This document shows, piece by piece, positions 1 to 33,136 of a DNA stretch of 35,180 bases (position 1 is its first letter; each line of letters starts with the position of its first letter). The position numbers and the translations under genes are program-made. Under the pieces are notes generated by a model that saw only the letters and a program-made list of their open reading frames with translations, did not search any database and was not told where the DNA came from. The stretch covers positions 1-35,180 of the forward strand of contig CAMYLP010000009.1 of NCBI GenBank assembly GCA_947259245.1. Direction: 5' to 3'. The stretch is from an uncultured Patescibacteria group bacterium. Lineage in GTDB: Bacteria > Patescibacteriota > Minisyncoccia > Phycocordibacterales > UBA12088.

Positions 1-88
1 ATTGCGGCATTGTACCATATTGGTACCATCAACCGCTTGCGCAGTGGCAGTGATTGTGACTGCGCAGTAAAGTACGTATACTGCACGC

Positions 89-184
89 ATGGGAGACGAC
101 AATCGAAGTAGAGGTAAGCTCGCCTTTCTTTTCGCAGGCATCCTCATCGTCATAGCATTTGTTATGGTACTGTTTGTGCTCTAA
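89..184 (+). CDS. putative 31-aa single-pass membrane microprotein (MGDDNRSRGKLAFLFAGILIVIAFVMVLFVL)
   Basis: ATG at 89, stop at 182-184; charged N-terminus then one hydrophobic helix; preceded by TTGTGA(54-59)-N17-TATACT(77-82), 6 nt before the ATG. Confidence 0.5.
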   Translation: MGDDNRSRGKLAFLFAGILIVIAFVMVLFVL

Positions 185-261
185 CCGGCAAACTGTGCGA
201 GAAGATAGCCATGTCATGTGCGGGTGGCGTTACGCGCTTTTTCCGTATATGCTGGTCGGAC

Positions 262-1275
262 ATGATTCGTCTCACGCCAAAGCTCGGCATTGACCTCGGC
301 ACGACAACAACTCTGGTCTACGTACCAGAAAAAGGCGTCGTTTTGAACGAGCCGTCAGTGGTCGCGGTGTCGCTCGAAGACCAAAAAATACTTGCGGTGG
401 GGGCAGATGCAAAAGTCATGATCGGTCGTACGCCGGACACCATTGTCGCGTATCGACCAATGAAGGACGGCGTGATAGCGAACTATCGCGTGACAGAGGT
501 CATGCTCGCCTACTACATGAAGAAAGCACTCGGTCGGTTCAGCATGTTTCGACCGGACGTCATACTGTCAGTGCCGGCAGGCGTGACATCCACCGAGAGA
601 CGCGCTGTCGTTGAAGCTGCGGTCAAGGCTGGTGCGCGGAACGCCTACGTAGTGAAGGAACCGGTGCTAGCAGCTATCGGTGCTGGTATTCCTATCCAAG
701 AACCTCGTGGTCACATCGTGGCGGACATCGGGGGCGGTACCATAGACGTTGCCGTGATTTCCCTTGGTGGTATCGTCGCTTCCACGTCGGTGAAGTGTGC
801 AGGGAACAGGCTCGACAGGGCAATCCAGGATTTTGTAAAGAAGAAGCGTAACATTGCGATCGGTGAAAAGACGGCCGAGGAGATAAAGATAGGGGTCGGC
901 TCAGCGCTACCGATCAAGGAAGAGCTGTCCATGGACGTGAAGGGACGCGATGTGATAACCGGACTGCCGCAAACGACGGAAATTACCACCAACGATGTCG
1001 TAAAAGCGACGCAACGTGAGCTACGGGAAATGATAGGTGCCATAAAGTACGTGTTACAGGAGACACCGCCCGAGCTTGCGGCGGATATTATTGACAGGGG
1101 TATCACCATGACAGGCGGCACCAGCCAGCTGCGGCACTTACCGGAGCTCATTTTTCGTCGTACCGGTGTCCGTGCGTCACTCGCAGACCATGCGCCGCTG
1201 TGTGTCGCACGCGGTACCGGTATCGCACTCACCCACCTCGATACGTACAAGCGCAGTATGATCGCAAAGAAGTAG
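262..1275 (+). CDS. mreB: MreB/Mbl-like rod-shape-determining actin homologue
   Basis: LGIDLGTTTTLVYV phosphate-1 motif, VADIGGGTIDVAVISLGG, ITMTGGTSQLRHLPEL; ORF opens at 211 but the start at 262 (MIRLTPKLGIDLG) fits the family. Confidence 0.93.
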   Translation: MIRLTPKLGIDLGTTTTLVYVPEKGVVLNEPSVVAVSLEDQKILAVGADAKVMIGRTPDTIVAYRPMKDGVIANYRVTEVMLAYYMKKALGRFSMFRPDVILSVPAGVTSTERRAVVEAAVKAGARNAYVVKEPVLAAIGAGIPIQEPRGHIVADIGGGTIDVAVISLGGIVASTSVKCAGNRLDRAIQDFVKKKRNIAIGEKTAEEIKIGVGSALPIKEELSMDVKGRDVITGLPQTTEITTNDVVKATQRELREMIGAIKYVLQETPPELAADIIDRGITMTGGTSQLRHLPELIFRRTGVRASLADHAPLCVARGTGIALTHLDTYKRSMIAKK

Positions 1276-1345
1276 CTACTTATCTATCCACTGCTTTCTT
1301 TCTCACATGGTCACGTGAGCACAGCGTGCGCGGTATACTATCTGT

Positions 1346-4108
1346 ATGCCTGATCCTTTTACGAATCAGCCGGAACGTGGTGACAACCGCTTTCAGAATC
1401 CAAATGAGGAGATTGAACATCTTCGCGCGCAGGTAGCTGAGCGCGAGCGGCAGCTCGCTGAGCTCGGTCAGAAACCGGAAAGGGAACTCGCTACGTATGA
1501 AGAGGTGCAAGAATACAAAGCAAAGCCACCTACTCAAGTGCTGCACGAAGACCATGCGATGGCACAGGGGGAGATGGACGCCTTTGTACTTGACCTTCCA
1601 CCCGATGATGACGACGAAGCGGTCCAGCAGCTCCTTGGAATCGTACACGAGAAGGGCGTAAAAAATGCGCTCACTGTCGCGGCGCAAGTGGGCAACGCCC
1701 ACGTTGAGGATGATTTTCATAGGGCACTCGTACAGTACATTGCGCACGGATACCCAGCAGCTGATCTTCGGGAGAAGGGTGCGCTCTGGAACGTCCTTCA
1801 CATGACCCTGTTTGAGGTAACGCTCCCCGAGCTTGACGAAGACGAACTCAATCGTCCGCTCGAGGAACTCATCAGCGCCATGGAACAGTTCTACCTCGGC
1901 ATGTTCTCAGTCGATGCAGATCTCCAAAAAAGGGGCGATCGTTTCTTCACGTTTGAGATAGCGGTCTCGGGTGATGCTGAGCACATCGTGTTCTACATTG
2001 CTGTTCCGAAGGACAAAGAAGACCTGTTTGAAAAACAGCTCCTCTCCGTGTTCCCGAAAGCTCGCGCGCACCACATGCCAAGTGACTACAACATTTTCTT
2101 ACACGATGGAGAAACGTCGGTCGCCTACGCGCAGCTCAAAGAGCACCCCATCTACCCCATCAAGGACTACCGTGCTTTCGACCACGACCCCTTGAACGTA
2201 CTCGTCAACTCCTTCACCAACCTCAAGGAGGTCGGCGAGGGTGCAGCAATACAAATGGTCATCAACCCGATCGGCTCGCGGTACGACCGCTACTACCGTA
2301 AGATCCTCGACAAGGTTGAGGAGGGGATGACACTGCGAGAAGCGCTTAAAGACACACCGGACGGCATGGCTGAAGAGATATTCAAAGGTTTCAAGGATTT
2401 TCTCTCGACAAAGAAACAGGATGACGATGAAGATGAACAGAAACGTGTCGACGACATCCTTGTCGAACAGATCCGCAATAAGGTAGAGACGACCATTCCG
2501 TCGGTAAATCTGCGACTCATTGCCAGCGCGGCCACCCAAGAGCGGGCACGTGCCATCATCACGGATACGATATCAAGTTACAACCAGTTCCACAATCCGT
2601 CCGGCAACCGGCTTCGTTTTGACCGTCCGACCGGGAAAAAGGCGCTCGAGGTCGCAAAACAGTACACGTTTCGCGAGTATGACACGCGGCAAGCGATGCC
2701 GCTGTCCGTTCGCGAGGTCACGACCTTGATGCACTTCCCATCGCATGCGCTTGCGGCGACGCCACAGCTGAAGCGAGCGAAAGCTGCGCTTGCTCCTGCA
2801 CCGGTGGGTCTGCCGACCAGCGGTACGCAGCTGGGAGTCAACAGTTTCAGAGGGCAAGACATAGATGTATTTCTTACCGATGAAGATCGCCTACGACACC
2901 TCTACGTCATTGGTCAAACCGGTACCGGTAAGTCAAAGTTCCTGCTGTCACTCATCAAGCAGGATATTGATCGTGGGGCAGGTGTCTGCTTTATCGACCC
3001 GCACGGTGAGGACGTGAATCTCATACTCGACAACATTCCGGAACACCGAATGCAAGATGTCATCTACTTTGATCCCGCTGACACCGAGCATGTACTTGGG
3101 CTCAACATGCTTGAGTACGATCCACGTTTTCCGGACCAGAAGATCTTCGTCATCAATGAACTCTTCGGCATTTTTCAGAAGCTCTATGCGGGCACACCGG
3201 AGAGCATGGGGCCTGCTTTTGAACAATACTTCCGTAACGCAACGGCTCTCGTACTGGAGGACCCAAGCACCGGGAGTACCATGCTCGATATCTCACGCGT
3301 CCTTGCCGACGAAAAGTATCGTGCGGTGAAGCTCTCGAGAAGTAAGAATCCTGTGGTCAATCAGTTTTGGAACGATATAGCGACAAAAGCGCAGGGAGAA
3401 GCGAGTCTGCAAAACATCGTGCCGTACATCACGAACAAGTTCGACATCTTCACCGCAAACGACATCATGCGGCCGATTATTGCGCAACAGACCTCTGCTT
3501 TCAGGATGCGCGAGGTGATGGATTCCAGTAAGATCCTGCTCGTCAATCTCTCGAAAGGCAAACTGGGGGACATCAACGCGAACCTTCTTGGCATGATCCT
3601 GGTGGGGAAGATGCTCATGGCGGCACTGTCACGAGTTGATGCACTTGTAAGTGACCTACCGCCTTTCTACCTCTATATCGATGAGTTTCATTTCATCTCA
3701 ACAAACTCCATCGCCTCTATACTCTCCGAGGCACGGAAATATAAGCTCTCGCTCAATGTGGCGCATCAATACATATCTCAGCTCGATGACAATATTCGTG
3801 ATGCGGTATTCGGTAATGTGGGAACAAAAGCGATCTTTCGTGTGTCCTACGATGACGCACAGTATCTCGAAAATCAGCTCAAGCCCGTGTTTGATACACA
3901 AGATATTATGAACATTGAATTCAGGTATGCATACCTGGCACTCCTTGCAAACGGTGTGCCGCAAAAACCTTTTAGTATTAAAACACTTGATTTTAGCAAA
4001 GGTAGCCCTGACAGAAACGCGCACGTCAGAAAACTCTCTGCACAAACCTATGCGCGAAACAAAGACGAGATCAACAGGGAGATAATGATGCGCTATGGTA
4101 TCGGGTAA
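1346..4108 (+). CDS. VirD4/TraG-type (type IV secretion coupling-like) P-loop ATPase with long N-terminal region
   Basis: Walker A GQTGTGKSKF, Walker B FYLYIDEFHFIS, HerA/VirD4-like C-terminal half; N-terminal heptad-rich segment. Confidence 0.8.
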   Translation: MPDPFTNQPERGDNRFQNPNEEIEHLRAQVAERERQLAELGQKPERELATYEEVQEYKAKPPTQVLHEDHAMAQGEMDAFVLDLPPDDDDEAVQQLLGIVHEKGVKNALTVAAQVGNAHVEDDFHRALVQYIAHGYPAADLREKGALWNVLHMTLFEVTLPELDEDELNRPLEELISAMEQFYLGMFSVDADLQKRGDRFFTFEIAVSGDAEHIVFYIAVPKDKEDLFEKQLLSVFPKARAHHMPSDYNIFLHDGETSVAYAQLKEHPIYPIKDYRAFDHDPLNVLVNSFTNLKEVGEGAAIQMVINPIGSRYDRYYRKILDKVEEGMTLREALKDTPDGMAEEIFKGFKDFLSTKKQDDDEDEQKRVDDILVEQIRNKVETTIPSVNLRLIASAATQERARAIITDTISSYNQFHNPSGNRLRFDRPTGKKALEVAKQYTFREYDTRQAMPLSVREVTTLMHFPSHALAATPQLKRAKAALAPAPVGLPTSGTQLGVNSFRGQDIDVFLTDEDRLRHLYVIGQTGTGKSKFLLSLIKQDIDRGAGVCFIDPHGEDVNLILDNIPEHRMQDVIYFDPADTEHVLGLNMLEYDPRFPDQKIFVINELFGIFQKLYAGTPESMGPAFEQYFRNATALVLEDPSTGSTMLDISRVLADEKYRAVKLSRSKNPVVNQFWNDIATKAQGEASLQNIVPYITNKFDIFTANDIMRPIIAQQTSAFRMREVMDSSKILLVNLSKGKLGDINANLLGMILVGKMLMAALSRVDALVSDLPPFYLYIDEFHFISTNSIASILSEARKYKLSLNVAHQYISQLDDNIRDAVFGNVGTKAIFRVSYDDAQYLENQLKPVFDTQDIMNIEFRYAYLALLANGVPQKPFSIKTLDFSKGSPDRNAHVRKLSAQTYARNKDEINREIMMRYGIG

Positions 4109-4171
4109 CATCGCTGGATAACCAACTTTCGTACGATGAGTAGCTATCGTACACTATATAGTGATAGTTCT

Positions 4172-5530
4172 ATGACGGTACTTAAAAAGTTTGGACCATA
4201 TGCGGCCTTTCTCGGTGTGGCGCTTGTGCTTGCCTATGCAACAGCGAACATACCGTGGCTGCGTGACCTGTTCATCCATCCTGATGGACACTTTGACCCA
4301 GAGCGCTTCTATCTTTCGCTAGCACTACTCTTCGGGGTGGGCTATGGCTTGAACTACTTTGCGCCAAAAACAGCCATACCAAGTTTCGTCTGGGCGGTCC
4401 TCTTTGGTATGGCGCTGCAGGTACCGCTCTACGCGCTCACCATGAACCTCGAGGCATTGAAGATGGTCGTTGAACTCTTGGCAGCATTTGTGCTCTTTGC
4501 GGGTGGTGTTGAGGTGCCCATCAAGAACTTCAAGAAGTACTTCGCACCGATAGCCACTCTCTCGCTTGCAGGTACCGTGCTCACGGTAATGTTATTTGCA
4601 TACGTCTTGTCCGGCCTCACAGGTTTCTTTGATATCCAAGTATCCATAGTCACCATTCTCGTTGTTGCAGCGATACTCGCATCGATAGACCCGACCGCCA
4701 TCATCCCCACGCTCGACCAGCTGCATTTCCGAAAGCCGTTCCTTCGAGATATTGCTGTGTCTGAAAGTGCCGTAAACGATGTGGTCGGTACCATATTGAC
4801 CCGCTTCTTCCTCGTCGCAGCACTCGGTGCCACGGCTGGCGCCATGGTGACAGTTGAAGACGGCCTCGCACCGCTGTTTACGCGTACGGTGCTCGACAGC
4901 TTTGCACTTGAGATAGTGTGGGGTGTCCTGGTCGGACTCCTTGGCGCAAAGATATTGAGCATTTGGGGTAAGTCCGTACGCGAGACGCACTGGTCTGACC
5001 CGGCACTCTTCTTTGCGGTCCCGATATTCTGTTTCGCACTCGGCTCGATAGCCGGTGGTTCTGGCTTCCTTGCGGCGTTCGTCGCAGGACTCCTCTTTGA
5101 GGCAAAAGCGGAGACCAAGATCGTACGAAACTTCTTCGAAAAATTGGTTGACGGATTTATGAAGCCAGTAATTTTCCTCCTGCTCGGTGCGCTTGTAGCG
5201 CTTGATGTCATGGTCGACACCATGGCAATTGGTGTACTCGCAGCACTTGTGTTCATGTTCATAGTGAGACCAGCGGTGGTCTTTTCTAGCTTGATGCCGT
5301 GGATGAGTCGACACAACGCGCTCCTCACATGGCGAGAGGTGATGTTTCTGTCCTTCATACGAGAAACCGGTGCTATACCCGCCGTGCTTATACTCACCGC
5401 GGTTGCAGCAGGTATAGTGCATGCTGAGTTTGTGTTTGCGATCGGTATGTGGGTGATACTGCTTACGCTCACCATAGAGCCGCCGTTCACACCGCTCCTC
5501 GCGCGCTACCTAGGCATCACGAAGGACTGA
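4172..5530 (+). CDS. CPA1-family cation:proton antiporter
   Basis: Many TM helices; SIDPTAIIPTLDQL and SESAVNDVVGTILTRFF motifs; ORF begins at 4136, likely start ATG 4172. Confidence 0.85.
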   Translation: MTVLKKFGPYAAFLGVALVLAYATANIPWLRDLFIHPDGHFDPERFYLSLALLFGVGYGLNYFAPKTAIPSFVWAVLFGMALQVPLYALTMNLEALKMVVELLAAFVLFAGGVEVPIKNFKKYFAPIATLSLAGTVLTVMLFAYVLSGLTGFFDIQVSIVTILVVAAILASIDPTAIIPTLDQLHFRKPFLRDIAVSESAVNDVVGTILTRFFLVAALGATAGAMVTVEDGLAPLFTRTVLDSFALEIVWGVLVGLLGAKILSIWGKSVRETHWSDPALFFAVPIFCFALGSIAGGSGFLAAFVAGLLFEAKAETKIVRNFFEKLVDGFMKPVIFLLLGALVALDVMVDTMAIGVLAALVFMFIVRPAVVFSSLMPWMSRHNALLTWREVMFLSFIRETGAIPAVLILTAVAAGIVHAEFVFAIGMWVILLTLTIEPPFTPLLARYLGITKD

Positions 5531-7012
5531 TCAGTCTCTGATACGCGTGATGCGCGGCCCGTCTTCAGTATCTTCGACGGCATAGCCGTGCTTTTCGAGA
5601 TCGTTCCTGAGTGTATCAGCACGTGCCCAGTCTTTTTCTGTTCGTGCTGCTTCACGATCCTCGACCAACATCCGTATCGACTCGGGCAATTCAGTTATGT
5701 CCTGACTGTCGACATCCAGCTGTATCCCTTTGCTCCCGCTTCGTGCCAACTCAATGATGCCTATACCGAGGACACGGTCGAAGTGGAGTAACGTTGCGCG
5801 TTTGTCCGCGGGTTGCACCTCTTCATCTTTCACAAGGTCCCACACGAGAGCAAGCGCTTTCGGCGTATCAAGGTCATCGTTCATTACACGGAGGAATGGT
5901 TCGTTGTATGAGGCATTGACCGTACCACCGGCCACCTGTGACAGGTGCTCAACAAAGAACCGATGCAACCGACGGAGTGCCGTTTGCGCACCCTCGAGTG
6001 CATGAAAGCTAAAATTCATTTGTGTACGGTAATGGCCGGCCAGCAGCCAGTATCGATACGCAAGGGGAGCAAAGCCGTGGTCGACAAGTTGGCGCAGTTT
6101 GATCGTGTTCTGTAAGCTCTTGCTGAATTTTGTACCTTCTACCATGATGTGCGCGTGGTGCATCCAGTAGCGAGCGAACTGCTTTCCTGTCGCCGCTTCA
6201 CTTTGTGCTATTTCATTGTTGTGGTGTGTGCCTATGTGGTCGATACCACCGGTGTGAATGTCTATCTCCTTACCGAGATACTCCATGGCCATCGCAGAAC
6301 ACTCAATGTGCCAGCCCGGAAAACCACGGCCCCAGGGACTCTCCCAGCCAATCGTGTCATTACGCTTCCACAGTGCAAAGTCGGTATGGTGTCGCTTTTC
6401 AGCGTTCATCTCGACGCGAGCGCCTTCCTTGAGCGCTTCAGTATCGATACCACCGAGTTTTCCATAGCCGTCAAAACGTGTGGTGTCGTAGTATACGCCG
6501 TCACTGGTTTGGTATGCATACTCTTTCTGCATCAGTGTCTCGATGAGCGCTATGTCTGCATCCACGTGTTCACTGGCGCGTGGTAGAGCGCTCGGGTGCT
6601 TTATGTTGAGCGCAGTAAGGTCCTCGAGAAACGCCTCTGTGAATGTGTCGGCGACTTCTTTCATGGCCTCAAGGGTGAGCGGTTTACCCTCACGCTTGAG
6701 CGCAAGTGTCATCTTGTCTTCTCCTTCATCGGCATCGGACGTGAGGTGTCCAACGTCTGTCACGTTGACCACCTGCATCACCTTGTACCCATTAATGAGA
6801 AGCACCCGCCGTATGATGTCCGAAAACACGTAGCTTCGCAGATTGCCGATGTGAGCATAGTCATAGACGGTCGGTCCACAATTGTACATCCGAACATAAT
6901 CATTGTGGACAGGCTCGAAGATTTCTTTCTTTCGAGTGAGTGTATTGTAGAAGAACAGCGGCAACTTGGCAGCGCTGCTTTTTTCAGTCGTGTTCATAAC
7001 AAAGGGAAGCAT
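5531..7012 (-). CDS. cysS: cysteinyl-tRNA synthetase
   Basis: NCGPTVYDYAHIGNLRSYVFSDIIRR (HIGH-type), FPGWHIECSAM, KFSKSLQN (KMSKS-type). Confidence 0.97.
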   Translation of the reverse strand: MLPFVMNTTEKSSAAKLPLFFYNTLTRKKEIFEPVHNDYVRMYNCGPTVYDYAHIGNLRSYVFSDIIRRVLLINGYKVMQVVNVTDVGHLTSDADEGEDKMTLALKREGKPLTLEAMKEVADTFTEAFLEDLTALNIKHPSALPRASEHVDADIALIETLMQKEYAYQTSDGVYYDTTRFDGYGKLGGIDTEALKEGARVEMNAEKRHHTDFALWKRNDTIGWESPWGRGFPGWHIECSAMAMEYLGKEIDIHTGGIDHIGTHHNNEIAQSEAATGKQFARYWMHHAHIMVEGTKFSKSLQNTIKLRQLVDHGFAPLAYRYWLLAGHYRTQMNFSFHALEGAQTALRRLHRFFVEHLSQVAGGTVNASYNEPFLRVMNDDLDTPKALALVWDLVKDEEVQPADKRATLLHFDRVLGIGIIELARSGSKGIQLDVDSQDITELPESIRMLVEDREAARTEKDWARADTLRNDLEKHGYAVEDTEDGPRITRIRD

Positions 7013-7064
7013 ACAGCGCAGTATAATGGAGAACTACGCTGGATGAAAGGATGCTGCTAAATCT

Positions 7065-7895
7065 CTACAGCCACTTTTTATACTTAAAGTATGCGAAGAA
7101 TGCGACCGCCACCGCGAGCATGATACCAACGATCATCCAGAAGTCGAGTGGGTGACCCAAGAGCGGTGTCCTAGTGGTGTTCATACTGAACACCGAGGTA
7201 AAGAGCGTAAGCGGGAAGGTCACGAAGGCTAGTATGGTGAAGGTCTTCATGATCTCATTCTGTTTGGTCGAGAGGAGTGAGTCGTTGGTTTTGCGCAACT
7301 CGTGCAGGCTCTCTCTGTGGGCCTGTAACGCTACCTTGAGACGCTCAAACTCTCCGACCAGACTACGGATATGTCGTGCATACTCATAGCCGAAGAGTGC
7401 CACGCTCGGTGTCTCGAGACTCTGTAACATCATCTGGTGTCCATCAAGCGCTTGGTTGTAGTTGAGTACGTCTCTGCTGATCGTGGACAGTACACGTACC
7501 ATCTCTCGTTCTTCGCCAAGAAATATGTGTTCTTCTGCGTCGTCGAGCCGTGCACTCATGTGCGTTAACTCATCCGAGACGGATTTATACAAGCCGGATA
7601 GCATGTAGTAAAACACGAAACCCGCATGTTCGCTCATGTTGCGTTTGTCGAGAACGGTATCGACCTCAAATAATGTAGAGAACTGGTGTAGGGGGTCTAT
7701 TTCACTATACCGTGTCGTTATGATCCACTTCTGTCCGACAATAAAGTCAAGTTCAACTGGAACTCCTGATATCGTATGTTGGTGCTTGAAGGCAGGGAAG
7801 TGCAACACAACATAAAAGTATTCATCTCGTGCATCGACCCTATGGGTGACTACGTCCACCCACAGCAATTCACCGTGACTATGTCTACGTATCAT
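7065..7895 (-). CDS. CorA-like divalent cation transporter (divergent GMN motif)
   Basis: CorA architecture: soluble helical N-terminal domain, two C-terminal TM helices, loop motif FSMNTT in place of GMN, basic C-terminal YFKYKKWL. Confidence 0.82.
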   Translation of the reverse strand: MIRRHSHGELLWVDVVTHRVDARDEYFYVVLHFPAFKHQHTISGVPVELDFIVGQKWIITTRYSEIDPLHQFSTLFEVDTVLDKRNMSEHAGFVFYYMLSGLYKSVSDELTHMSARLDDAEEHIFLGEEREMVRVLSTISRDVLNYNQALDGHQMMLQSLETPSVALFGYEYARHIRSLVGEFERLKVALQAHRESLHELRKTNDSLLSTKQNEIMKTFTILAFVTFPLTLFTSVFSMNTTRTPLLGHPLDFWMIVGIMLAVAVAFFAYFKYKKWL

Positions 7896-7990
7896 AGGGA
7901 CAGTATACCAAGTCTTCGACATAGACCATCCTAGGGGCGGTGGATAGCGAGCGTGCTGATGAAACGGTAAAAGTAGCGTACAATGGTCCC

Positions 7991-9262
7991 ATGGAACAGA
8001 AGCAACATCTTGGCATCGTACTCCTTGCAGTTATGCTGGCGTTTTTCATCGGGTTCGTTTTTGGCCACCAGGTTGAAACACGTGCCTCACAGACGACGTA
8101 CAGCCCGGGTGCGCCTTCCGATGTGAACATGGACCCGGTATGGCGCGCCTGGTGGCTCCTTGATGAGAAGTTTGTGTCATCAAGTAGCAGCGCACCACTC
8201 TCTGCCGAGGAGCGCGTTTGGGGCATTATCGCCGGGCTGGCAAACAGCTACAATGATCCCTACACCTTGTTCTTGCCGCCACAGGCCTCAAAGAGTTTTG
8301 ACGAGGAGCTATCAGGTGCGTTCGGGGGAGTCGGGATCGAGATAGGCATGCGCGACGGCATCCTCACTGTCATTGCACCTCTGAAAGGGACTCCTGCCGA
8401 TCTCTCCGGTATAAGGGCTGGTGACCTTATTCTTGAGGTTGATGGCATAAGCACGCAGAACATGAGCATAGACGACGCTGTCTCTACCATTCGTGGAGAG
8501 GTGGGTTCAAGTATCGAGTTCACGATCGCGCGGGAAGGAGAGCAAGAGTTCCTAACCATTGAGGTAGTGCGAGATACTATTAAGGTGCCAACGCTCGACA
8601 GTGAGCTCCGGAGCGACGGTGTGTTTGTCATTTCCCTGTATAATTTTGGCGGCACGGCCGTTGATGAAATGCGGAACGCGCTACGGTCATTCGTTCAGAC
8701 CGGTTCTGACAAACTGATCCTAGACCTACGGGGAAATCCCGGTGGGTTCGTGGACGCTGCTATAAATACCTCCAGCTGGTTTCTGGAAGCTGGAAAGGTG
8801 ATACTCATTGAGGATTTTGGTGATGAACAAGAGCGAATCTATCACCGTTCCACGGGTCGTGATATCACGCAAGACGACTGGAACATTGTAGTACTCGTAG
8901 ATGGCGGTTCGGCGTCCGCATCTGAAATAGTAGCTGGAGCACTACGGGAACACGGGAAGGCAGTTGTCATGGGAGAACAAACGTTCGGCAAAGGGTCGGT
9001 GCAGGAGCTCGTACAGGTGACGCCTGAGACTTCGCTGAAGATAACGGTGGCGCAGTGGTTAACGCCGAACGGCATAACCATCTCTGACGGAGGCCTTACG
9101 CCCGACTATGTTATCGAACTACAACGCGAGGACATTGAGGCGGGTCGTGATCCCCAAATGGACACCGCGGTTCAGTACCTACTCACTGGCGTATTCGCTC
9201 TTCCCGCTGCCGCAAGTACGACTGACGCGACAGGGCTTGAAGCGGGGAACGATTTAGAGTAG
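7991..9262 (+). CDS. S41 family carboxyl-terminal processing peptidase (CtpA-like) with PDZ domain
   Basis: N-terminal TM; PDZ GGVGIEIGMRDGILTVIAPLKGTPADLSGIRAGDLILEVDG; catalytic Ser/Lys motifs GSASASEIVAGAL and GEQTFGKGSVQ. Confidence 0.95.
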   Translation: MEQKQHLGIVLLAVMLAFFIGFVFGHQVETRASQTTYSPGAPSDVNMDPVWRAWWLLDEKFVSSSSSAPLSAEERVWGIIAGLANSYNDPYTLFLPPQASKSFDEELSGAFGGVGIEIGMRDGILTVIAPLKGTPADLSGIRAGDLILEVDGISTQNMSIDDAVSTIRGEVGSSIEFTIAREGEQEFLTIEVVRDTIKVPTLDSELRSDGVFVISLYNFGGTAVDEMRNALRSFVQTGSDKLILDLRGNPGGFVDAAINTSSWFLEAGKVILIEDFGDEQERIYHRSTGRDITQDDWNIVVLVDGGSASASEIVAGALREHGKAVVMGEQTFGKGSVQELVQVTPETSLKITVAQWLTPNGITISDGGLTPDYVIELQREDIEAGRDPQMDTAVQYLLTGVFALPAAASTTDATGLEAGNDLE

Positions 9263-10068: not shown

Positions 10069-10133
10069 AGTATCGTATGTGTGTAAAAATTTGGTGTATG
10101 TAGTAGACTCCTACTTGGTATACTGTTTTCACT

Positions 10134-10517
10134 GTGGCGTACACTTTACCAGAGATACAGGGCTCACGCAAGATGCGGGAGGTGCTACTCCTTGCCTCTG
10201 TTGTCCTGCTAGCATTCCTATCCTTTGGACTCGGTCGCCTGTCAGCCACCGATGCAAGACCAGAGGTAGCGCTCTGTGAAGCCACACTTGTCCCAATACG
10301 GGAGTCCGCACGTACATCCACGGCAGTGCCCGGGGGCACTCTTGATGCACCACTGTACGCGGGCACGTACGTCGGCTCAAGGCATGGCTCAACGTACCAT
10401 TTTCCGTGGTGTCCCGGCGCAAAGCGCATAAACAAAGAGAATGAGGTTTGGTTCAACTCAAAGCAACAAGCAGAGGATGCGGGGTACCGTGCCGCAAGCA
10501 ACTGTAAGGGGTTATAA
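10134..10517 (+). CDS. membrane-anchored protein with Ada-like metal-binding domain
   Basis: GTG start; TM segment LLLASVVLLAFLSFGLGRL; C-terminal YVGSRHGSTYHFPWCPGAKRINKENEVWFNSKQQAEDAGYRAASNCKGL resembles the Ada Zn-binding fold. Confidence 0.7.
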   Translation: MAYTLPEIQGSRKMREVLLLASVVLLAFLSFGLGRLSATDARPEVALCEATLVPIRESARTSTAVPGGTLDAPLYAGTYVGSRHGSTYHFPWCPGAKRINKENEVWFNSKQQAEDAGYRAASNCKGL

Positions 10518-10525
10518 TGCTATCT

Positions 10526-11557
10526 ATGGGTATACATCCTGAATACCGCAAAGCGCGTCGTAGAGCCATCACCGTTGGCTGGGGATTTGTTTGTATCGGA
10601 TTGCTCGGCATCGTGATGCCCTTACTGCCGGGTATCATTTTAATACTCGTTGGCTTTTCGTTATTGTCGCTTCACAGCAAACGCGCTCACCTGTTTATTG
10701 CTACAGTACGAGCACGCCATCCGGAGGCTGGCGTACATTTGGAGCGCATTGAAACACACGTTGCGCAGTGGTTGAACATCGCAACACACACTCATGAATA
10801 TATACACGTTCCGAGGAAAGGCACGGGTGTGGTGCACGTTCTTCTTGAAGTGTGTAAGCACCAAGAAGGGATCGTGGTCTTGCTGCACAGCGCGCAGACG
10901 ACCAGGGAGGGCGTCGTACAAAACAGCATCGCCGAGGCGTTTCGTGCACGTGGTTTCACCGTGGTCCGCTTCGACGCGTATAATGGTATCGGGGAAGGTG
11001 ATGGCACGTATACCAACCTCACTGCAACCAGCTACAAGGAGGACCTCGAGTCCGTACTGGCATGGATGAGGGAGCAAGTGTGGTACAAACCACACATCAC
11101 CCTTGTGGGACACTCAGTCGGTGGTCTGGTTGCAGGGCTGTATGCGCAAGAACACCCACAGCAGGTGAACGAGCTCTTTCTCCTCGCCCCAACGATATCA
11201 GGTGCACAGTATCGTGCTGCAGCACGGGCTGCGGATGAAGAGGCTTTTCTGGCATGGGAGGAAACACGTCTAAAGTTGGTACAACACCCGCTCACTGGAG
11301 AGGATTACGGTCTCGCCTTCGGGTTCGTGACCGACCTGGACTCACACGACCTCCTGCCACATGCCAACAGCATAACGTGCACGACACACGTGCTTGTAGG
11401 GAACGAGGACACCACGTCCCCCCCGGATACCTGCGAGACTCTGGTGCGGGAAATAGGCGGACACGCCGAGCTGCATGTCCTACAGGGTGTCCCGCACATA
11501 CCACATACACATGAGCACATACGCGAACTTGAACGCGTCTTAGAAGCTATAGAATAA
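10526..11557 (+). CDS. alpha/beta hydrolase fused to an N-terminal two-helix membrane domain (PGPGW/DUF454-like)
   Basis: N-terminal GFVCIGLLGIVMPLLPGIILILVGFSLLS; nucleophile elbow GHSVGG, acid in LVGNEDTTSPPDTC, His in LQGVPHIPHTHEH. ATG at 10526 lies 7 nt after TATAAT (10513-10518). Confidence 0.8.
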   Translation: MGIHPEYRKARRRAITVGWGFVCIGLLGIVMPLLPGIILILVGFSLLSLHSKRAHLFIATVRARHPEAGVHLERIETHVAQWLNIATHTHEYIHVPRKGTGVVHVLLEVCKHQEGIVVLLHSAQTTREGVVQNSIAEAFRARGFTVVRFDAYNGIGEGDGTYTNLTATSYKEDLESVLAWMREQVWYKPHITLVGHSVGGLVAGLYAQEHPQQVNELFLLAPTISGAQYRAAARAADEEAFLAWEETRLKLVQHPLTGEDYGLAFGFVTDLDSHDLLPHANSITCTTHVLVGNEDTTSPPDTCETLVREIGGHAELHVLQGVPHIPHTHEHIRELERVLEAIE

Positions 11558-11561
11558 CACC

Positions 11562-12164
11562 ATGATCGTACTCGACGTTGAAGCATCAGGCACCGACTAT
11601 GAGAAGCACTCCATTCTCTCGATTGGTGCGCTTGATTTCAATGAGCCAGACAATCGCTTGTACTTGGAGTGCCATGTGTGGGAGGGTGCCCACATTGATC
11701 CGGGCGCTCTCGAGGTTACCGGATTCAGCAAGGATGAAGCTACGGACAACAGCAAGCTCACCGAAGCACAGCTCATTTCCCAGTTCTTGAGTTGGGCAGA
11801 CGGTGTCGCGGACCAGACGTTCGCGGGTCAAAATGTCTCATTCGATAGGGACTTCGTCCGCGTTGCGTGTGAGCGTGCTGGGTTGAATTATCCTTTCGCA
11901 CATCGTACTGTTGATACACACAGTCTTGCCTACATGCACTACGTCACGCACGGTCATGTGGTGCCGGAAGATAAGCGTCACAGCGCACTGAATCTAGATA
12001 CCATCTTGAACTACGTAGGGATACCGGATGAGCCAGAGCCACACAATGCACTCACAGGCACACTCTGCCATGCTGAGGTCATATCACGCTTGCTGTACAA
12101 TGCACCACTACTCCCAGAATTCGAACAATATCCCTTACCGGACTCGTTCCATGACCAAGCTTGA
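11562..12164 (+). CDS. DEDDh-fold 3'-5' exonuclease-like protein (DnaQ/RNase T superfamily), last catalytic Asp replaced
   Basis: ExoI IVLDVEASGTD, ExoII AGQNVSFDRDFV, ExoIII position HNALTGT (His retained, +5 residue Gly instead of Asp). Confidence 0.82.
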   Translation: MIVLDVEASGTDYEKHSILSIGALDFNEPDNRLYLECHVWEGAHIDPGALEVTGFSKDEATDNSKLTEAQLISQFLSWADGVADQTFAGQNVSFDRDFVRVACERAGLNYPFAHRTVDTHSLAYMHYVTHGHVVPEDKRHSALNLDTILNYVGIPDEPEPHNALTGTLCHAEVISRLLYNAPLLPEFEQYPLPDSFHDQA

Positions 12165-13180: not shown

Positions 13181-13243
13181 TACCGAAATGTACATCCACA
13201 AGGTGCGTCCATCAGCACTTTTCATCATGGTATACTAACGACC

Positions 13244-13960
13244 ATGGAAGCAATGCGACCAAAACGGCCGTCAGTAGAGCACGAACTGCTACAGCAGGGC
13301 GACGAAGATGTCAGTCTTACGTCATGGCGGATATTCCGTATCATGTCAGAGTTTGTCGCGGGTTTTGAGCTTCTGCGGCGGTATCGCTTGGCGGCGACGA
13401 TATTTGGATCTGCCCGAGCGCTTCCCGACGACAGATGGTACCAAGAATCACAGAAACTAGGATATCTATTGGCAAAAGATGGCTTTGCCATTATTACGGG
13501 TGGTGGTGGTGGGATCATGGGAGCAGCAAACAAGGGTGCGTATGAAGCGGGCGGGGAATCGGTCGGTCTCAACATACGTCTGCCGCATGAACAGCGACTC
13601 AATAGCTACGTGACCGATTCCGAGACATTCCATTTTTTTTTCACACGAAAGGTCATGTTGTCGTTCGCGAGTGAAGCGTACATATATTTTCCTGGAGGTT
13701 TTGGAACAATGGATGAGTTCTTTGAAATCGTCACACTCATTCAAACAAAAAAAATATCGCGTGTGCCCATCATACTCGTTGGGACCGATTACTGGCAGCC
13801 ACTCATCGAGTGGTTCGAAGGTACGATGCTCGCTAAGTACCGGGCCATCGGCAAAAAGGATACATCGCTGTTTCAGATTGTTGACTCGGCAGAAGAGGCA
13901 CGTGAGGTCCTGCGTGCGCTCGACACAAGTGATCTGGAAACGATAAAGGGTACTGCGTAA
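13244..13960 (+). CDS. TIGR00730-type LOG family (lysine decarboxylase-like Rossmann) protein
   Basis: TIFGSARALPDDRWYQESQKLGYLLAKDGFAIITGGGGGIMGAANKGA and PGGFGTMDEFFE. Start ATG 13244 chosen over 13073. Confidence 0.92.
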   Translation: MEAMRPKRPSVEHELLQQGDEDVSLTSWRIFRIMSEFVAGFELLRRYRLAATIFGSARALPDDRWYQESQKLGYLLAKDGFAIITGGGGGIMGAANKGAYEAGGESVGLNIRLPHEQRLNSYVTDSETFHFFFTRKVMLSFASEAYIYFPGGFGTMDEFFEIVTLIQTKKISRVPIILVGTDYWQPLIEWFEGTMLAKYRAIGKKDTSLFQIVDSAEEAREVLRALDTSDLETIKGTA

Positions 13961-25166: not shown

Positions 25167-25230
25167 CCGAAACGCCTCGGCAGGGCTACTTCAAAAAGAA
25201 AAATACAAGTACCCGCCACAGGCGGACTAC

Positions 25231-25254: not shown

Positions 25255-25304
25255 GCTATCTTGTAGCTTGGCAACATGTGGTAGAATAAGGGTCAACCTG
25301 CGAT

Positions 25305-26213: not shown

Positions 26214-26224
26214 CCTGATGCGAC

Positions 26225-26250
26225 AAAAACCACCCGTAGGGGTGGTTTTT
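26225..26250. terminator. bidirectional Rho-independent terminator between convergent genes
   Basis: AAAAACCACCC-gtag-GGGTGGTTTTT perfect 11-bp inverted repeat. Confidence 0.9.
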
Positions 26251-26253
26251 CTG

Positions 26254-26649: not shown

Positions 26650-26652
26650 AAT

Positions 26653-27018
26653 TTATTCAAGTATCGTTAAGTTCTTCATGCGAACAGCGCGCAGTCGGTT
26701 GTTCGGCAACATGCCGTACACTGCCTTGCGTAAAATTTCACGGTACCCCTTCTTCGCGATGACCTGAGACATAGGTTCTCGTCGTAGACCTCCAGGATAT
26801 CCAGAGTATCGCTGATACGTTTTCTGTGCACGTTTTCGTTCATCGATAAACAATTTGCTCGCATTTTCTACGGTTACTTGGACCGGTGCAGCTTGATGAC
26901 GAACAGCATCAGTCCTATTCTTGCCCATCAACAGATGAGCAACTTCTGTAGCCACGCGGCCAAGGCGCTTTCCCTGCGCGTCTATTGTATGTTCTTGTAT
27001 TGGTGCTTGTGCTTTCAT
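26653..27018 (-). CDS. rplM: 50S ribosomal protein L13
   Basis: IDAQGKRLGRVATEVAHLLMGKNRTD ... KTYQRYSGYPGGLR ... AVYGMLPNNRLR. Confidence 0.96.
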   Translation of the reverse strand: MKAQAPIQEHTIDAQGKRLGRVATEVAHLLMGKNRTDAVRHQAAPVQVTVENASKLFIDERKRAQKTYQRYSGYPGGLRREPMSQVIAKKGYREILRKAVYGMLPNNRLRAVRMKNLTILE

Positions 27019-27027
27019 AGGTCCATT

Positions 27028-27381
27028 CTATACAAATCCGATGAATGCTTTTGTCGCACCGTCACCTGCCCGTGTACCAACGCGTACGATACGCACATAC
27101 CCTCCCGGTCGATCTTTGTACTTTGGCCCGATTTCAACAAATAGCTTGCTGGTTGCCCGTGCGTCGTTGCCAAGGCGGGCACTAACAAGACGACGGTTTG
27201 CAACGGTATCTTCTCGAGCAACGGTCACGAGACGTTCAATAAAGGGTCGAAGACTCTTTGCCTTTGCCTCTGTTGTTATCATCTTTCCCTCGAGGATCAA
27301 GTTGTGTGCCAGAGATCGCATCAACGCTCTACGTACTTTACGTTCCCGTCCCAATTTCTTTACTTTGCTGTGATGTAACAT
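27028..27381 (-). CDS. rplQ: 50S ribosomal protein L17
   Basis: MLHHSKVKKLGRERKVRRALMRSLAHNLILEGKMITTEAKAKSLRPFIERLVTVA; start ATG 27381, 8 nt after a TATACT. Confidence 0.96.
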   Translation of the reverse strand: MLHHSKVKKLGRERKVRRALMRSLAHNLILEGKMITTEAKAKSLRPFIERLVTVAREDTVANRRLVSARLGNDARATSKLFVEIGPKYKDRPGGYVRIVRVGTRAGDGATKAFIGFV

Positions 27382-27420
27382 GGTGATTGAGTATACCGTT
27401 CCTATCTTGAATCGCAAGTG

Positions 27421-28404: not shown

Positions 28405-28449
28405 ACGTTTACTAGTAGTGAAGCTGGTAAGAAATAATGACGATAGCTA

Positions 28450-29067
28450 TTAACGACTGTAGTACTCAAGTATAGCACCTGGACTTCCGGGCATTTCTGT
28501 CATGTCGGCGGTCGGACGGGCGTTTACCTTCCCTTCCATCTTCTTTACGTTAAGCGTAAGCCATGCTGGCGTAGATGCTTCCTCAATAGACTGTTTCAGT
28601 CGTTCTGCTATGGGAAGGGCTTTTGTACGGTCACGTACGGCAATACTATCGCCTTCACGTACTTGGACACTTGGAACGGTCGTGCGCGTACCATTGAGCA
28701 GAACGTGACCGTGCGACACGAACTGGCGTGCAGCACGTCGTGTTGAGGCAAGACCAAGTCGGTACACGACATTATCCAAGCGCATTTCAAGCTGCTCGAT
28801 GAGACGAACGATCGGGTCCATGCCAAGTGCGGAGACACGATTCGACTCTTCAACATAGCGCCGTAGCTGGCGCTCGGAGATTCCATACGCAAATCGGACG
28901 CGTTGTTTTTCAAGTAGCTGCTTGCCGTAATCGGAAACGTTGCGACGTCGTCCGCGGACGTTCTTTGTATGCCGCGCTTCACTGAGCATGTACTTTTGTG
29001 TCTGGCACTTATCGTAGACACCTGCCCCGAGACGTCGACATACTTTATATGTTGGTTGAATTTTCAT
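28450..29067 (-). CDS. rpsD: 30S ribosomal protein S4
   Basis: KQLLEKQRVRFAYGISERQLRRYVEES, RLDNVVYRLGLASTRRAARQFVSHGHVLLNG. Confidence 0.96.
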   Translation of the reverse strand: MKIQPTYKVCRRLGAGVYDKCQTQKYMLSEARHTKNVRGRRRNVSDYGKQLLEKQRVRFAYGISERQLRRYVEESNRVSALGMDPIVRLIEQLEMRLDNVVYRLGLASTRRAARQFVSHGHVLLNGTRTTVPSVQVREGDSIAVRDRTKALPIAERLKQSIEEASTPAWLTLNVKKMEGKVNARPTADMTEMPGSPGAILEYYSR

Positions 29068-29084
29068 ATGACTATTCGTATGCA

Positions 29085-29519
29085 TTAGACACGCCGAGGT
29101 TTCCGTTGTCGTGGACCGTTAAATGGCATTGGTGTCTCGTCACGTATCCCCGACAGCGAGATGCCTTTTCCGGCGAAACTGCGCATTGCTGCCTCGCGAC
29201 CGGCGCCCACACCACGTATAACCACGTCGACCTCACTCATTCCCATTTGAATGGCCTTGTCTGCCATCAGCTCGCCTACCTTGGCGGCTGCAAAGGGTGT
29301 ACTCTTCTTGGCACCTTTAAATCCCAAGCTTCCTGCGCTACTTGCCACGAGCGTATTGCCGCGCTTATCAGTAAGTGTGACCAGTGTGTTGTTGTACGTT
29401 GCCTGTACGTTGAGCGTACCACGGTCAACTTTCTTTCGCGCACTTCGAGAAAGTGCACGCGCACGTAGACCTTCGTTTACCGATGACCCTGATTTCTTTA
29501 CAATTCGTTTCTTACCCAT
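29085..29519 (-). CDS. rpsK: 30S ribosomal protein S11
   Basis: GTLNVQATYNNTLVTLTDKRGNTLVASSAGSLGFKGAKKSTPFAA ... RDETPMPFNGPRQRKPRRV. Confidence 0.97.
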   Translation of the reverse strand: MGKKRIVKKSGSSVNEGLRARALSRSARKKVDRGTLNVQATYNNTLVTLTDKRGNTLVASSAGSLGFKGAKKSTPFAAAKVGELMADKAIQMGMSEVDVVIRGVGAGREAAMRSFAGKGISLSGIRDETPMPFNGPRQRKPRRV

Positions 29520-29548
29520 AGGAGTACCTGAATATTACGTGTGCGAAG

Positions 29549-29932
29549 CTACTTCTTTTCAACCTTACGACGTCCACTACCCATTGTTTTGCGGACACCC
29601 TTGAGCGTACGTGCGTTTGTCTTTGTGTGCTGACCACGACATGGGAGTCGCTTCAAGTGACGGCTTCCACGATAACTTGCTACATCCTTTAAACGCTTTA
29701 TGTGCGATCCTACCTCTCTGCGGAGTTCTCCTTCGATGAGTAGACCTCTGTTCTCAATTGCTGAGCGTATGGCTTTCTCTTCGTCCGTTGATAGATCTTT
29801 TGCCTTCTTACCTAGATCAATCTTCGCATCGTTCAGAATGTCATGCGCCATCGGCCGACCAACACCGTATACTTCGGTGAGTCCTATTTCCAAACGCTTA
29901 TTATCGGGAATGGTAATACCAGCTATACGCAT
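29549..29932 (-). CDS. rpsM: 30S ribosomal protein S13
   Basis: MRIAGITIPDNKRLEIGLTEVYGVGRPMAHDIL ... RGSRHLKRLPCRGQHTKTNARTLKG. Confidence 0.97.
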   Translation of the reverse strand: MRIAGITIPDNKRLEIGLTEVYGVGRPMAHDILNDAKIDLGKKAKDLSTDEEKAIRSAIENRGLLIEGELRREVGSHIKRLKDVASYRGSRHLKRLPCRGQHTKTNARTLKGVRKTMGSGRRKVEKK

Positions 29933-29948
29933 AACTATGTTTGTCTTC

Positions 29949-30065
29949 TTAACCCTGACGCTGTTTGTTGCGCGGCCTTTTCTTATTTATGACATACAAA
30001 CGACCGCGTCGACGCACTATTTTGTCATCCGGACTACGTTTCTTTATAGATGATCGTACTTTCAT
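29949..30065 (-). CDS. rpmJ: 50S ribosomal protein L36 (zinc-less type); absent from the supplied ORF track because it is short
   Basis: Translated by hand: [38 protein letters not shown] between infA and rpsM. Confidence 0.95.
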
Positions 30066-30132
30066 GTTCTTCTTTCCTAAAAAAGCTGCCCGAAGACGGA
30101 CAGAACGTACCCCCGCAAACTACGAAACTTGC

Positions 30133-30348
30133 TTAATTGCGTCGAACGATACGTGCTTTCCCGCCATACGGATCCAACTCCAACTGTACGGTGTCGCCTA
30201 TGAGCACCTTGATCCGATGCTTGCGCATCTTACCGGCCACATACGCGAGTACCAACGTACCGTCAGCAAGCAAAACACGAAACAAGGCGTTTGGGAGCGC
30301 CTCCTCGACTGTTCCCGCTACTGTTTGCTTCTCAGGTTGATTCTGCAT
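30133..30348 (-). CDS. infA: translation initiation factor IF-1
   Basis: [59 protein letters not shown]. Confidence 0.95.
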
Positions 30349-30379
30349 CGAGCGTCAGCAAAGAGTATCAAAATAGTGC

Positions 30380-31807
30380 CTATGCGTCAAGTTCTGTGAT
30401 CACCACTATGTCTTCTGCTGATTCTGGGAATGTCTTCTTCCAGAACGGCCGTATGGTCGCAGCGGCTCGGTCAATACCGGGATATGCTTCAAGAAGACCA
30501 CCTTGGACCGGCATTTGAAGAATCACCTTATCCTTACCCGCCAAATCCTCAGCAAAACTTGTTGGGTCGAACTCCCAGATAAAGTGGGTTGTTCCTTCAA
30601 CGGAAACATCGTACGTAGTCGCCTGCCATGGCACATTTGCGGTTTGGTTGTCCTCATCGTCAACTGCTGTGACCTGTACGATGAGGTCATCAGGATTGTC
30701 GATGTAGAGCTCGGCTCCCTCATAGTTGCCCAACGTCTGCTCCGCAAGGCGCTGTGCGAAAACATCCTCTTTGAACAACAAGCCATGAAGTTTACCGGTC
30801 AGCGACACTGTTACTTTATCCTGCTCTACAAGTTCGTCAGGTAGTGAGTTAAACTCGTAGAAAATCGCTTCCTTGAACAGATGGTATCCGTCCGGCTGTT
30901 CAGCATCACTGAACGCCGCATCACGTAGTTCGTCGCGCAACTGTGATTCAAGATCTGTAAGGGCTTGTTGACGTTCTGCTTCACCGACGGTACGTTTCAC
31001 GCCAACAAAGCCGCCCGCAAGCGCTTCTGTGCTTTTTGCGTATATCTTGCCCTCAGGTGGTAGTCCAACGAACCCCGGAATCGAGAAAGTGTCTGGACCC
31101 ATGTTGTAATCCTCCCCAGGCTCCTCTGCGTAGACCGTGACCTCAATCGTACCGGGAGTACCATCACTATTCATGCCGGGTACCTCAACCGGGTCAGCGA
31201 TGCGATAGATACGTCCCTCGCTCGACTCGAAGCGTGTACGCTTGATGAGCCGTTGTGGCGCGTCAGAATACTCGTTGAAGATGGTTATGTTTCCAAAGGC
31301 GCGTTCCTCTACCTCATCTTCACCGAGCGCAACTACGCTCTGGCTGGCGGTACGTTCTACAACAATGCGCTCAAACGGTAGTGCGCCTCCGGCACCTTCT
31401 TGCTCGGCGGTGAACTGAGCGGATGCGACCATCTTATCCTGTAGCGGATATACGGTTACGGTCGCTCCAGCAAAGAGCAGTGAAAGTGCAACGGAAGAGA
31501 GTATGACGATAGCACCAATACCAAGTGCTACTATCAGCCATTTCTTGCGATGCGGATCACCTTCATCAAACATATCATCTCTGCCCAACACCGGCGGCTC
31601 GTCTAAAGGACGGCTTATACGATGCCGCACACGCCGAGACTGATCTTCGTCGTAATCGTGTTCTGGGTGGGCAGCGCTGGCATCCCTTCGTATGGGTACC
31701 GCGTTTTCTTCATGTTGAGCCGGTGCGCGGCGGCGGCGTACTCCCTCGTCGGGAGTGCTTCTCCGGGAAGGTTTTACTATTACATCCTGTAAGGGCGGTT
31801 TTCTCAT
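30380..31807 (-). CDS. single-pass membrane protein with large extracytoplasmic region, unknown function
   Basis: Cytoplasmic Arg-rich N-terminus, TM WLIVALGIGAIVILSSVALSLLFAG, beta-rich C-terminal region. Confidence 0.75.
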   Translation of the reverse strand: MRKPPLQDVIVKPSRRSTPDEGVRRRRAPAQHEENAVPIRRDASAAHPEHDYDEDQSRRVRHRISRPLDEPPVLGRDDMFDEGDPHRKKWLIVALGIGAIVILSSVALSLLFAGATVTVYPLQDKMVASAQFTAEQEGAGGALPFERIVVERTASQSVVALGEDEVEERAFGNITIFNEYSDAPQRLIKRTRFESSEGRIYRIADPVEVPGMNSDGTPGTIEVTVYAEEPGEDYNMGPDTFSIPGFVGLPPEGKIYAKSTEALAGGFVGVKRTVGEAERQQALTDLESQLRDELRDAAFSDAEQPDGYHLFKEAIFYEFNSLPDELVEQDKVTVSLTGKLHGLLFKEDVFAQRLAEQTLGNYEGAELYIDNPDDLIVQVTAVDDEDNQTANVPWQATTYDVSVEGTTHFIWEFDPTSFAEDLAGKDKVILQMPVQGGLLEAYPGIDRAAATIRPFWKKTFPESAEDIVVITELDA

Positions 31808-31836
31808 ACTCTACATATTCAGTATACCATGTGGTG

Positions 31837-33060
31837 TTAGGCACCGAGGCGAGGTCGGAGCGCATGTGTGAATACCTGAATACGGCTATCCTGTATGGCA
31901 TCTTTCGGAACATCAGTGCCCTCGTGTACCGGCAATACAAAGTCTTTACACGGTCGTACGACCAGAGGCCGCTCCTCACGGATACCTGGAACGAGGAATG
32001 GGCGCTGTAGTAGAGGTAAAAGAAACTCATTCCAGTTGTTACCGACGAGCACCATGGTGAGCTCTGGAGGTGTAACCCCATCGCTTTGGTCAACAATCTC
32101 ATCACGTACTGCAACGTACCACGCTTCGAGCGCCTCGCGAACGACTGCAGGCAGCTCCAGTTCGTCCGTCTCGCCACCACTCTTGGTTTTTCTGAATACT
32201 TCGAACGTACTCTGTGCTTCCCGCATGCTGATAGCGTTGGGTGCTGCAGCACGCAATATGCTGTTCGTTCCCGTGGGGATGGTACGCACATGAACAAGTG
32301 AACCGCGTCGCACGGTCGAAATGCTTGTGATCTGCCCGAGCACCTCAATAAGTATCGCCTGTGCAGTCTCGCCCTGCCAGAGTGTTTGATGGAAGAGTTT
32401 TGCAAGCAGTCGCGTACTGGTATGTACGTGGGCAGTAGAATGCGGGAGTACCCTGTCGAGTATTTCGTGTATTTGATCAAGGGTTTCTATCCCAACTATC
32501 GCGTGATACGTAATGACGGACATCTCATTGACCATTTTCTGCCTCCAGTTTTTGATTGGATACCCCTGTAGATACGTAGCTTGGTCTAACACATCTATTT
32601 GTTTAAACTCTCCAACCACCTCCTGCCACGAACGACACGCTGGTCTCTCGACAATGTCTGTCAGTCCCTCGGTGTGAAGTTCTGCTAGCACGGTTTCGTC
32701 GGCCATGAATGCACGTTCCACACTTCGAGTACTTTCAGCAACGCCGGCAAAGAACCACGGTGGTGAAATAACGCAGTGTACGCTTAGATCGGAGGCCTTA
32801 AACGAGGCATTGTGTGCACGTGCAAAGGGCAAACCCTCGCTGGTCAATTTCATGCCGAGCTCTAAAAGTGTAGAGTACATAGACCGCACGTAACGATGAT
32901 AATCGTCATATGCCTGGTACGAGTACTCCAGACGTGCGTACCATAAAAGCGTATTCCCCTGCGCATGACACTGCGAAAGACCAACACCAACGCTCGTTGC
33001 ACCTATATCAAATACCACTGAGTACGGTTTACTAGCTGACGCATCGCGCTTGCTTAACAT
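31837..33060 (-). CDS. divergent ASKHA/actin-like protein (FtsA/PilM-like)
   Basis: SVVFDIGATSVGVGLSQ phosphate-1-like motif, AQAILIEVLGQITSISTVRRGSL phosphate-2-like strand; start ATG 33060. Confidence 0.6.
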   Translation of the reverse strand: MLSKRDASASKPYSVVFDIGATSVGVGLSQCHAQGNTLLWYARLEYSYQAYDDYHRYVRSMYSTLLELGMKLTSEGLPFARAHNASFKASDLSVHCVISPPWFFAGVAESTRSVERAFMADETVLAELHTEGLTDIVERPACRSWQEVVGEFKQIDVLDQATYLQGYPIKNWRQKMVNEMSVITYHAIVGIETLDQIHEILDRVLPHSTAHVHTSTRLLAKLFHQTLWQGETAQAILIEVLGQITSISTVRRGSLVHVRTIPTGTNSILRAAAPNAISMREAQSTFEVFRKTKSGGETDELELPAVVREALEAWYVAVRDEIVDQSDGVTPPELTMVLVGNNWNEFLLPLLQRPFLVPGIREERPLVVRPCKDFVLPVHEGTDVPKDAIQDSRIQVFTHALRPRLGA

Positions 33061-33136
33061 GCACACAGTATAGCTTTGTCCGGGTGCACTTCACAGAGTC
33101 ATTGTACACACGTGAGATAGTGGCGCGGTGTTCCCG

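Follow-up and report, generated by a model that had tools for sequence, protein, structure and literature searches.

Leaderless genes of the TA-led type, which carry a TA-rich -10 element about 10 bp before the start codon, are known from many bacteria, Actinobacteria and Deinococcus-Thermus included (PMC3160421), among them Mycobacterium tuberculosis (PMC3898074), and a survey based on GeneMarkS-2 predicted leaderless genes in 21.6% of bacterial species (PMC9581028). Loss of the anti-Shine-Dalgarno (anti-SD) sequence from 16S rRNA has been described in Flavobacteriia, Mycoplasma and insect symbionts (PMC6107228), and single genomes of the Candidate Phyla Radiation (CPR) without CCUCC have already been listed, namely from Campbellbacteria, Wolfebacteria, Absconditabacteria and Peribacter (PMC10783764, category iv). 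Here we describe a 35,180-nt stretch of DNA (the window), the whole of contig C9 (CAMYLP010000009.1, assembly GCA_947259245.1; lineage Minisyncoccia; Phycocordibacterales; UBA12088), and the -10-like boxes, typically TATACT, that stand 6-9 nt before start codons in it. We are largely confident that these boxes are extended -10 promoters of the housekeeping sigma factor, set at leaderless spacing in a lineage with neither anti-SD nor Shine-Dalgarno (SD) motifs.

This layout shares with TA-led genes (PMC3160421, PMC3898074) the position of the TA-rich box and a similar share of genes (more than 20% in those phyla). Unlike the classic examples, which co-use SD, it is found in Parcubacteria (CPR), with SD motifs undetectable and the anti-SD gone. 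With SD-scarce organisms lacking CCUCC (PMC10783764, PMC6107228) it has in common the altered 16S tail and SD motifs at background level, but here the loss is order-wide, is repeated in sister families and is joined to a leaderless promoter layout. Initiation of the Bacteroidetes type (PMC6847099) likewise does without SD and prefers A at -3 and -6 (here in operon-internal genes); Flavobacterium johnsoniae, however, is mostly leadered and keeps its anti-SD, whereas here many mRNAs are predicted to be leaderless, the anti-SD is lost, and a pyrimidine at position -1 dominates. Leaderless mRNAs (here predicted) combined with a lost anti-SD are also seen in Nanoarchaeia and Sulfolobus (PMC10783764), although with archaeal ribosomes and promoters, in contrast to the sigma70 extended -10 and the bacterial IF1 and IF3 found here. 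No report of leaderless promoters in CPR or of order-wide anti-SD loss was found, which is weak evidence of absence, as subscription journals were thinly covered. What is new is the order-wide pairing of leaderless promoters with anti-SD loss in Parcubacteria, each part alone being already known.

A -10-like box at fixed distance before first genes

The window belongs to a draft metagenome-assembled genome rebuilt from stretches (G000; 949,805 bp in 37 contigs, 97% complete, GC 51.5%), to which the results below refer unless another genome is named. Genes were called with our own Markov-chain caller, in which upstream signals are unused, and the main set of first-in-operon genes (hereafter, first genes) comprises 446 genes. 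The initial annotation had listed 13 -10-like hexamers with their gaps and start codons, all of which lie exactly where it placed them, and had noted an excess of TATACT, which was confirmed: the window holds 27 copies against 10.9 +/- 3.5 expected, and 0/100 dinucleotide shuffles reach 27. Across the genome, TATACTN{4,9}ATG occurs 115 times versus 53 for the reversed pattern. Moreover, with no motif supplied, TATACT emerged as the commonest hexamer between -30 and -6 of first genes (64/556), and it did not rank among the frequent words before genes lying close behind another gene.

The spacing was then analyzed independently of start calls, by pairing each TATACT close to the 5' ends of the 446 first genes with each later ATG. 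At spacers of 6, 7 and 8 nt, the ATG was in frame with the gene in 21/21, 17/17 and 10/10 cases (48/48 together), and at 9 nt in 5/7, while no case at all was observed at 4-5 nt; at 12-30 nt only 24/41 were in frame (Fisher p = 2e-7 for the frame contrast). A discriminator of 6 nt is about the shortest that sigma70 promoters normally use, and a start point on the A of AUG would produce just such an abrupt lower edge at 6 nt. When scored with a position weight matrix (PWM), a strong box at 6-9 nt was in excess over shifted-spacing controls in 24-29% of first genes, versus about 5-7% of operon-internal genes, and strong matches 0-9 nt before starts numbered 82 sense versus 10 antisense. The signal is of the TA-led type, with a TA-like -10 at a fixed distance of roughly 10 bp before the start codon, and is confined to promoter-proximal genes. 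A genome-wide motif search had been named by the initial annotation as the trial of its claim, which came through it with a sharp peak that is lost in the frame and spacing controls.

As to the anatomy of the element, an iterated PWM on the genome yielded the extended -10 consensus TGGTATACT. Hexamer positions 1, 2, 4 and 6 are fixed in the confident set, and the bases just 5' of TATACT favor T (.42), G (.64) and G (.56), that is, T-G-G-TATACT; the classic sigma70 extended -10 has TGn, whereas here G is favored at both positions adjoining the hexamer. Most boxes had been said to lack a good -35, which is true of single sites, but a weak TTG emerges from the aligned set at the canonical spacing of 17 bp (its two T's have p = 4e-6 and 5e-5). 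TG 5' of the hexamer together with a weak or missing -35 is the pattern of a sigma70 extended -10, and one clear RpoD-type sigma is present in the gene set.

The signal is conserved among relatives. In 200 kb from each of three further members of the order (G140, G011 and G073), 25-26% of first genes have the TA-box at 6-9 nt, against 27% in G000. Where orthology fixes the start in these three genomes, the box is present in 17/43 cases if the G000 orthologue is boxed and in 23/105 if it is not (Fisher p = 0.04), with controls at 1-4%; at 16S-linked loci the corresponding numbers are 15/38 versus 6/51 (p = 0.005), although the same few genes are repeated there and the cases are not independent. 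In addition, across 120 named Parcubacteria loci, TATANT stands 6/7/8/9 nt before a long open reading frame (ORF) 47/20/19/12 times, as compared to 3.1 per nt at 14-40 nt, and 69/120 loci contain it at 6-9 nt.

Loss of the anti-SD and of SD motifs

The larger finding, which the initial annotation had not seen, is that the lineage has no anti-SD in its 16S rRNA and no SD signal. The single 16S gene of G000, identified with Rfam (C17:37056-38566, minus strand; model positions 1-1533 in one match), has the tail GGATTAATTCC where GGATCACCTCC is expected, and ends in ...GTAGCGGAAGCTGCTCGTGGATTAATTCC... versus ...TGGATCACCTCC... in other bacteria. The CCTCC core is gone from 22/22 readable tails of the order (e.g., GGAATATTTC and GGATTAATTC), including that of the single-contig genome G011; these tails are alike but not identical, and a variant of the same kind is common to related genomes. 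Among 83 tails sampled from the class, the core is lost in 43, partial (CTCC) in 10 and intact in 30, with many sister families also lacking the anti-SD, whereas nearly all tails in the rest of the phylum retain CCTCC. The erosion appears graded across many families of the class (CACCTCC, CATCTCC, CACTTC, ATTTTT), so that several independent losses are likely. Helix 45 covaries by compensatory exchange (G-C in 67 and C-G in 60 of 128 distinct sequences), and these 16S are therefore real, functional rRNAs. Order-type tails occur in genomes named Kaiserbacteria, Nomurabacteria, Taylorbacteria, Zambryskibacteria, Yonathbacteria, Adlerbacteria and other Parcubacteria; the tail-pattern search behind this list excluded anti-SD-bearing tails and thus provides names but says nothing about frequencies. 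The closest named 16S sequences belong to the Parcubacteria bacteria ND3_Bin_29 (93.6%) and GW2011_GWD2_42_14 (93.1%).

Some further features of these rRNAs were observed. G140 has a second 16S copy on another contig (G140:C6:260-318); its anti-SD is intact, its helix 45 differs, and it probably stems from a contaminating contig. The 16S match of genome G026 (locus L088) is shorter than the model and seems to have a non-rRNA insert nearby, possibly an intron. A hairpin following helix 45 in the precursor shows a modest excess only (mean stem 3.9 versus 3.25 in shuffles).

In G000, G140, G011 and G073, the frequency of SD-like words before start codons differs little or not at all from background; first genes of G000 reach 0.050 against 0.019-0.031 in controls, and the other order members give no signal. 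The same test detects SD-like words in 20-26% of genes in G158, an SD-using genome of another class, versus approximately 3-7% in controls, which indicates that it works. Counts of AGGAG-ATG patterns were dropped as an SD test, since coding composition by itself produces a ratio near 2 whether the anti-SD is intact or lost.

A different start context was found instead in operon-internal genes of G000, of which about 90% have a pyrimidine, mostly T, at position -1. A at -3 (0.47) and at -6 (0.45) is also frequent in these genes and weak in first genes. We met no description of a -1 pyrimidine signal for CPR; it was also seen outside the order, in G070 and in G262 (T in 82% of internal genes), both with intact anti-SD, and is absent in SD-using G158. 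Operon junctions include 26 ATGA overlaps and 33 starts lying 1 nt after a stop, and TAGT precedes 20/238 internal ATG starts, forming the stop-start junction TAGTATG; together, TAGTATG junctions and ATGA overlaps suggest translational coupling. Genes for IF1, IF3, bS18, an S1-domain protein and bS21 are present. A supposed loss of bS21 was discarded: although phmmer with the E. coli protein found nothing, G000 and many other genomes of the class have a match to the Pfam model of bS21.

Weighing of explanations and order of events

According to the promoter reading given at the outset, RNA polymerase would recognize the extended -10 and begin transcribing at the A of the start codon, so that in around a quarter of first genes the mRNA would begin with AUG; the ribosome may then take this 5'-terminal AUG directly. 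As both the anti-SD and the SD motif are lost, leadered and operon-internal genes must start independently of SD, probably by context (the -1 pyrimidine, and A at -3 and -6), and operon-internal starts are probably also coupled to the upstream stop codon. Given that the anti-SD loss is order-wide, most protein synthesis in this bacterium very probably starts without an SD signal.

Several points weigh against this reading. No more than about a quarter of first genes have the strong box, and strong matches are also in excess 10-60 nt upstream (100 sense versus 38 antisense): leadered promoters exist in G000 as well, and although a strong match lies near 239 first genes, it is at leaderless spacing in 107 of them. 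The "window-wide leaderless architecture" of the initial annotation was overstated in this respect, since the leaderless boxes are real but other strong promoters are leadered and operon-internal genes are mostly boxless. Moreover, genes were obtained from a simple home-made caller and their starts are computational. The -1 pyrimidine was rejected as a transcription-start signature, as operon-internal genes carry it equally, and leaderless promoters also occur in G134, of the same class and with intact anti-SD, and in SD-using G158.

The computational starts and the promoters further upstream would suit the possibility that the boxes are ordinary -10s of leadered mRNAs, with a downstream start being used and the ATG at 6-9 nt being incidental. 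We consider this unlikely, because ATGs at 6-8 nt are in frame without exception, homology-supported starts in relatives carry the box at 6-9 nt far above control, and the starts of rplQ, cysS and mreB fit their protein families. It is even less probable that the anti-SD loss is an artefact of assembly or annotation, or that a second, anti-SD-bearing 16S gene exists. The genome is indeed a draft that is 97% complete, and G140 does have such a copy, but the loss extends to every readable tail of the order, a single-contig genome included, the tails are similar without being identical, helix 45 shows compensatory changes, the Rfam model matched once in G000, and the differing helix 45 of the G140 copy points to contamination.

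Since the 6-9 nt spacing resembles that of an SD and the 16S tail has changed, TATACT might alternatively act in translation, as an mRNA element that replaces the SD and pairs with the altered tail. This idea is hardly tenable: operon-internal genes are mostly boxless, AGTATA is absent from the tail, the motif comes with the TG of an extended -10 and a -35 set 17 bp away, and genomes whose tails differ share this box. Words complementary to the altered tail, as read from the gene, were not clearly enriched upstream of starts. Finally, upstream regions are slightly richer in AT, and TATACT-like words might simply be frequent near starts by base composition or chance; we give this practically no credence, as the signal is not reproduced by dinucleotide shuffles, the reversed pattern, shifted spacers, antisense strands or internal-gene controls, and G070 and G262 lack the peak.

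How leaderless promoters relate to anti-SD loss was addressed by comparing genomes outside the order. The TA-box at 6-9 nt reaches 15% of first genes in G090 (other family, anti-SD lost), 24% in G134, which shows no SD use, and 14% in G158, alongside SD; no peak was seen in G070 and G262. Over the class, the ratio of near to far boxes has a median of 1.30 where the anti-SD is lost and of 1.11 where it is intact (p = 3e-4 when counted by genome and 0.026 by family, or 0.06 by family once the window's order is left out), a loose association and no proof. To attribute the leaderless layout to anti-SD loss would be too simple, since leaderless use in G134 and G158 means that it is not a mere consequence of that loss. 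The anti-SD is still present in G134, G070 and G262, where SD use is not clear, and its decay therefore probably came after SD use had been abandoned. Overall, we cautiously favor a scenario in which the window's order and its parallels in the class abandoned SD initiation: SD use was lost first, leaderless promoters and start context took over, and the useless anti-SD decayed repeatedly and independently.

Sites in the window and wider meaning

The 13 sites are collected in Table 1.

Table 1. Boxes upstream of start codons in the window.
Box	Gap (nt)	Start codon	Gene or product	Span	Strand	Remark
TATACT	6	ATG	31-aa ORF (89-184)	77..91	+	No Pfam match; gene status unproven
-10 TATGCT	8	ATG 262	mreB	248..264	+	Score 5.9 (weaker box); MreB profile match from residue 7 on
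-10 TATACT	6	ATG 1346	VirD4/HerA-like ATPase (TraG-D_C, DUF87)	1334..1348	+	70 nt after upstream gene
-10 TATAGT	9	ATG 4172	Na+/H+ exchanger	4157..4174	+	
-10 TATACT	7	ATG 7012	cysS	7010..7025	-	Alignment from residue 1 with 71%-identical homologue
-10 TATACT	6	ATG 7895	CorA-like transporter	7893..7907	-	Divergent with S41 promoter
-10 TACAAT	6	ATG 7991	S41 peptidase	7979..7993	+	
-10 TATACT	9	GTG 10134	Ada-Zn-domain protein	10119..10136	+	Sole GTG among the 13
-10 TATAAT	7	ATG 10526	alpha/beta hydrolase	10513..10528	+	Overlaps stop of upstream Ada-like ORF
TAGAAT	6	ATG 11562	Exonuclease-like protein	11550..11564	+	Score 5.3; probably chance
-10 TATACT	7	ATG 13244	LOG/SLOG-family protein	13231..13246	+	TGGTATACT extended -10
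-10 TATACT	8	ATG 27381	rplQ (bL17)	27379..27395	-	L17 profile from residue 20, rest covered
-10 TATACT	6	ATG 33060	407-aa protein (31837-33060)	33058..33072	-	No Pfam match

Both start corrections proposed by the initial annotation stood, that of cysS through its homologue and that of the hydrolase through the gene caller, which picked 10526 independently. Three sites fared less well. The exonuclease box is where it had been reported (11550-11555), but it shares bases with the stop codon of the preceding gene, 4 nt upstream, and is probably a chance match. For the 407-aa protein, the start at 33060 is supported by one of two gene-calling runs (the other chose 32880), while the label "FtsA-like" finds no backing in Pfam. 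The box (77-82) and gap of the first site were correct, but its ORF is not an established gene; the encoded peptide is hydrophobic and follows a perfect leaderless TATACT box, and may be a small membrane protein.

The SD/anti-SD pair is usually held to be near-universal in bacteria, and here a very diverse uncultured group has ribosomes that lack it. For gene calling, this means that start models expecting SD motifs will put starts in the wrong place, cysS being one gene where this can occur. The finding also bears on the evolution of translation initiation under genome reduction, and as sister families differ in their anti-SD status, it is possible to reconstruct in which order the losses took place. 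If SD initiation was indeed abandoned as proposed, the class would be a natural laboratory for anti-SD loss and for SD-free translation in bacteria.

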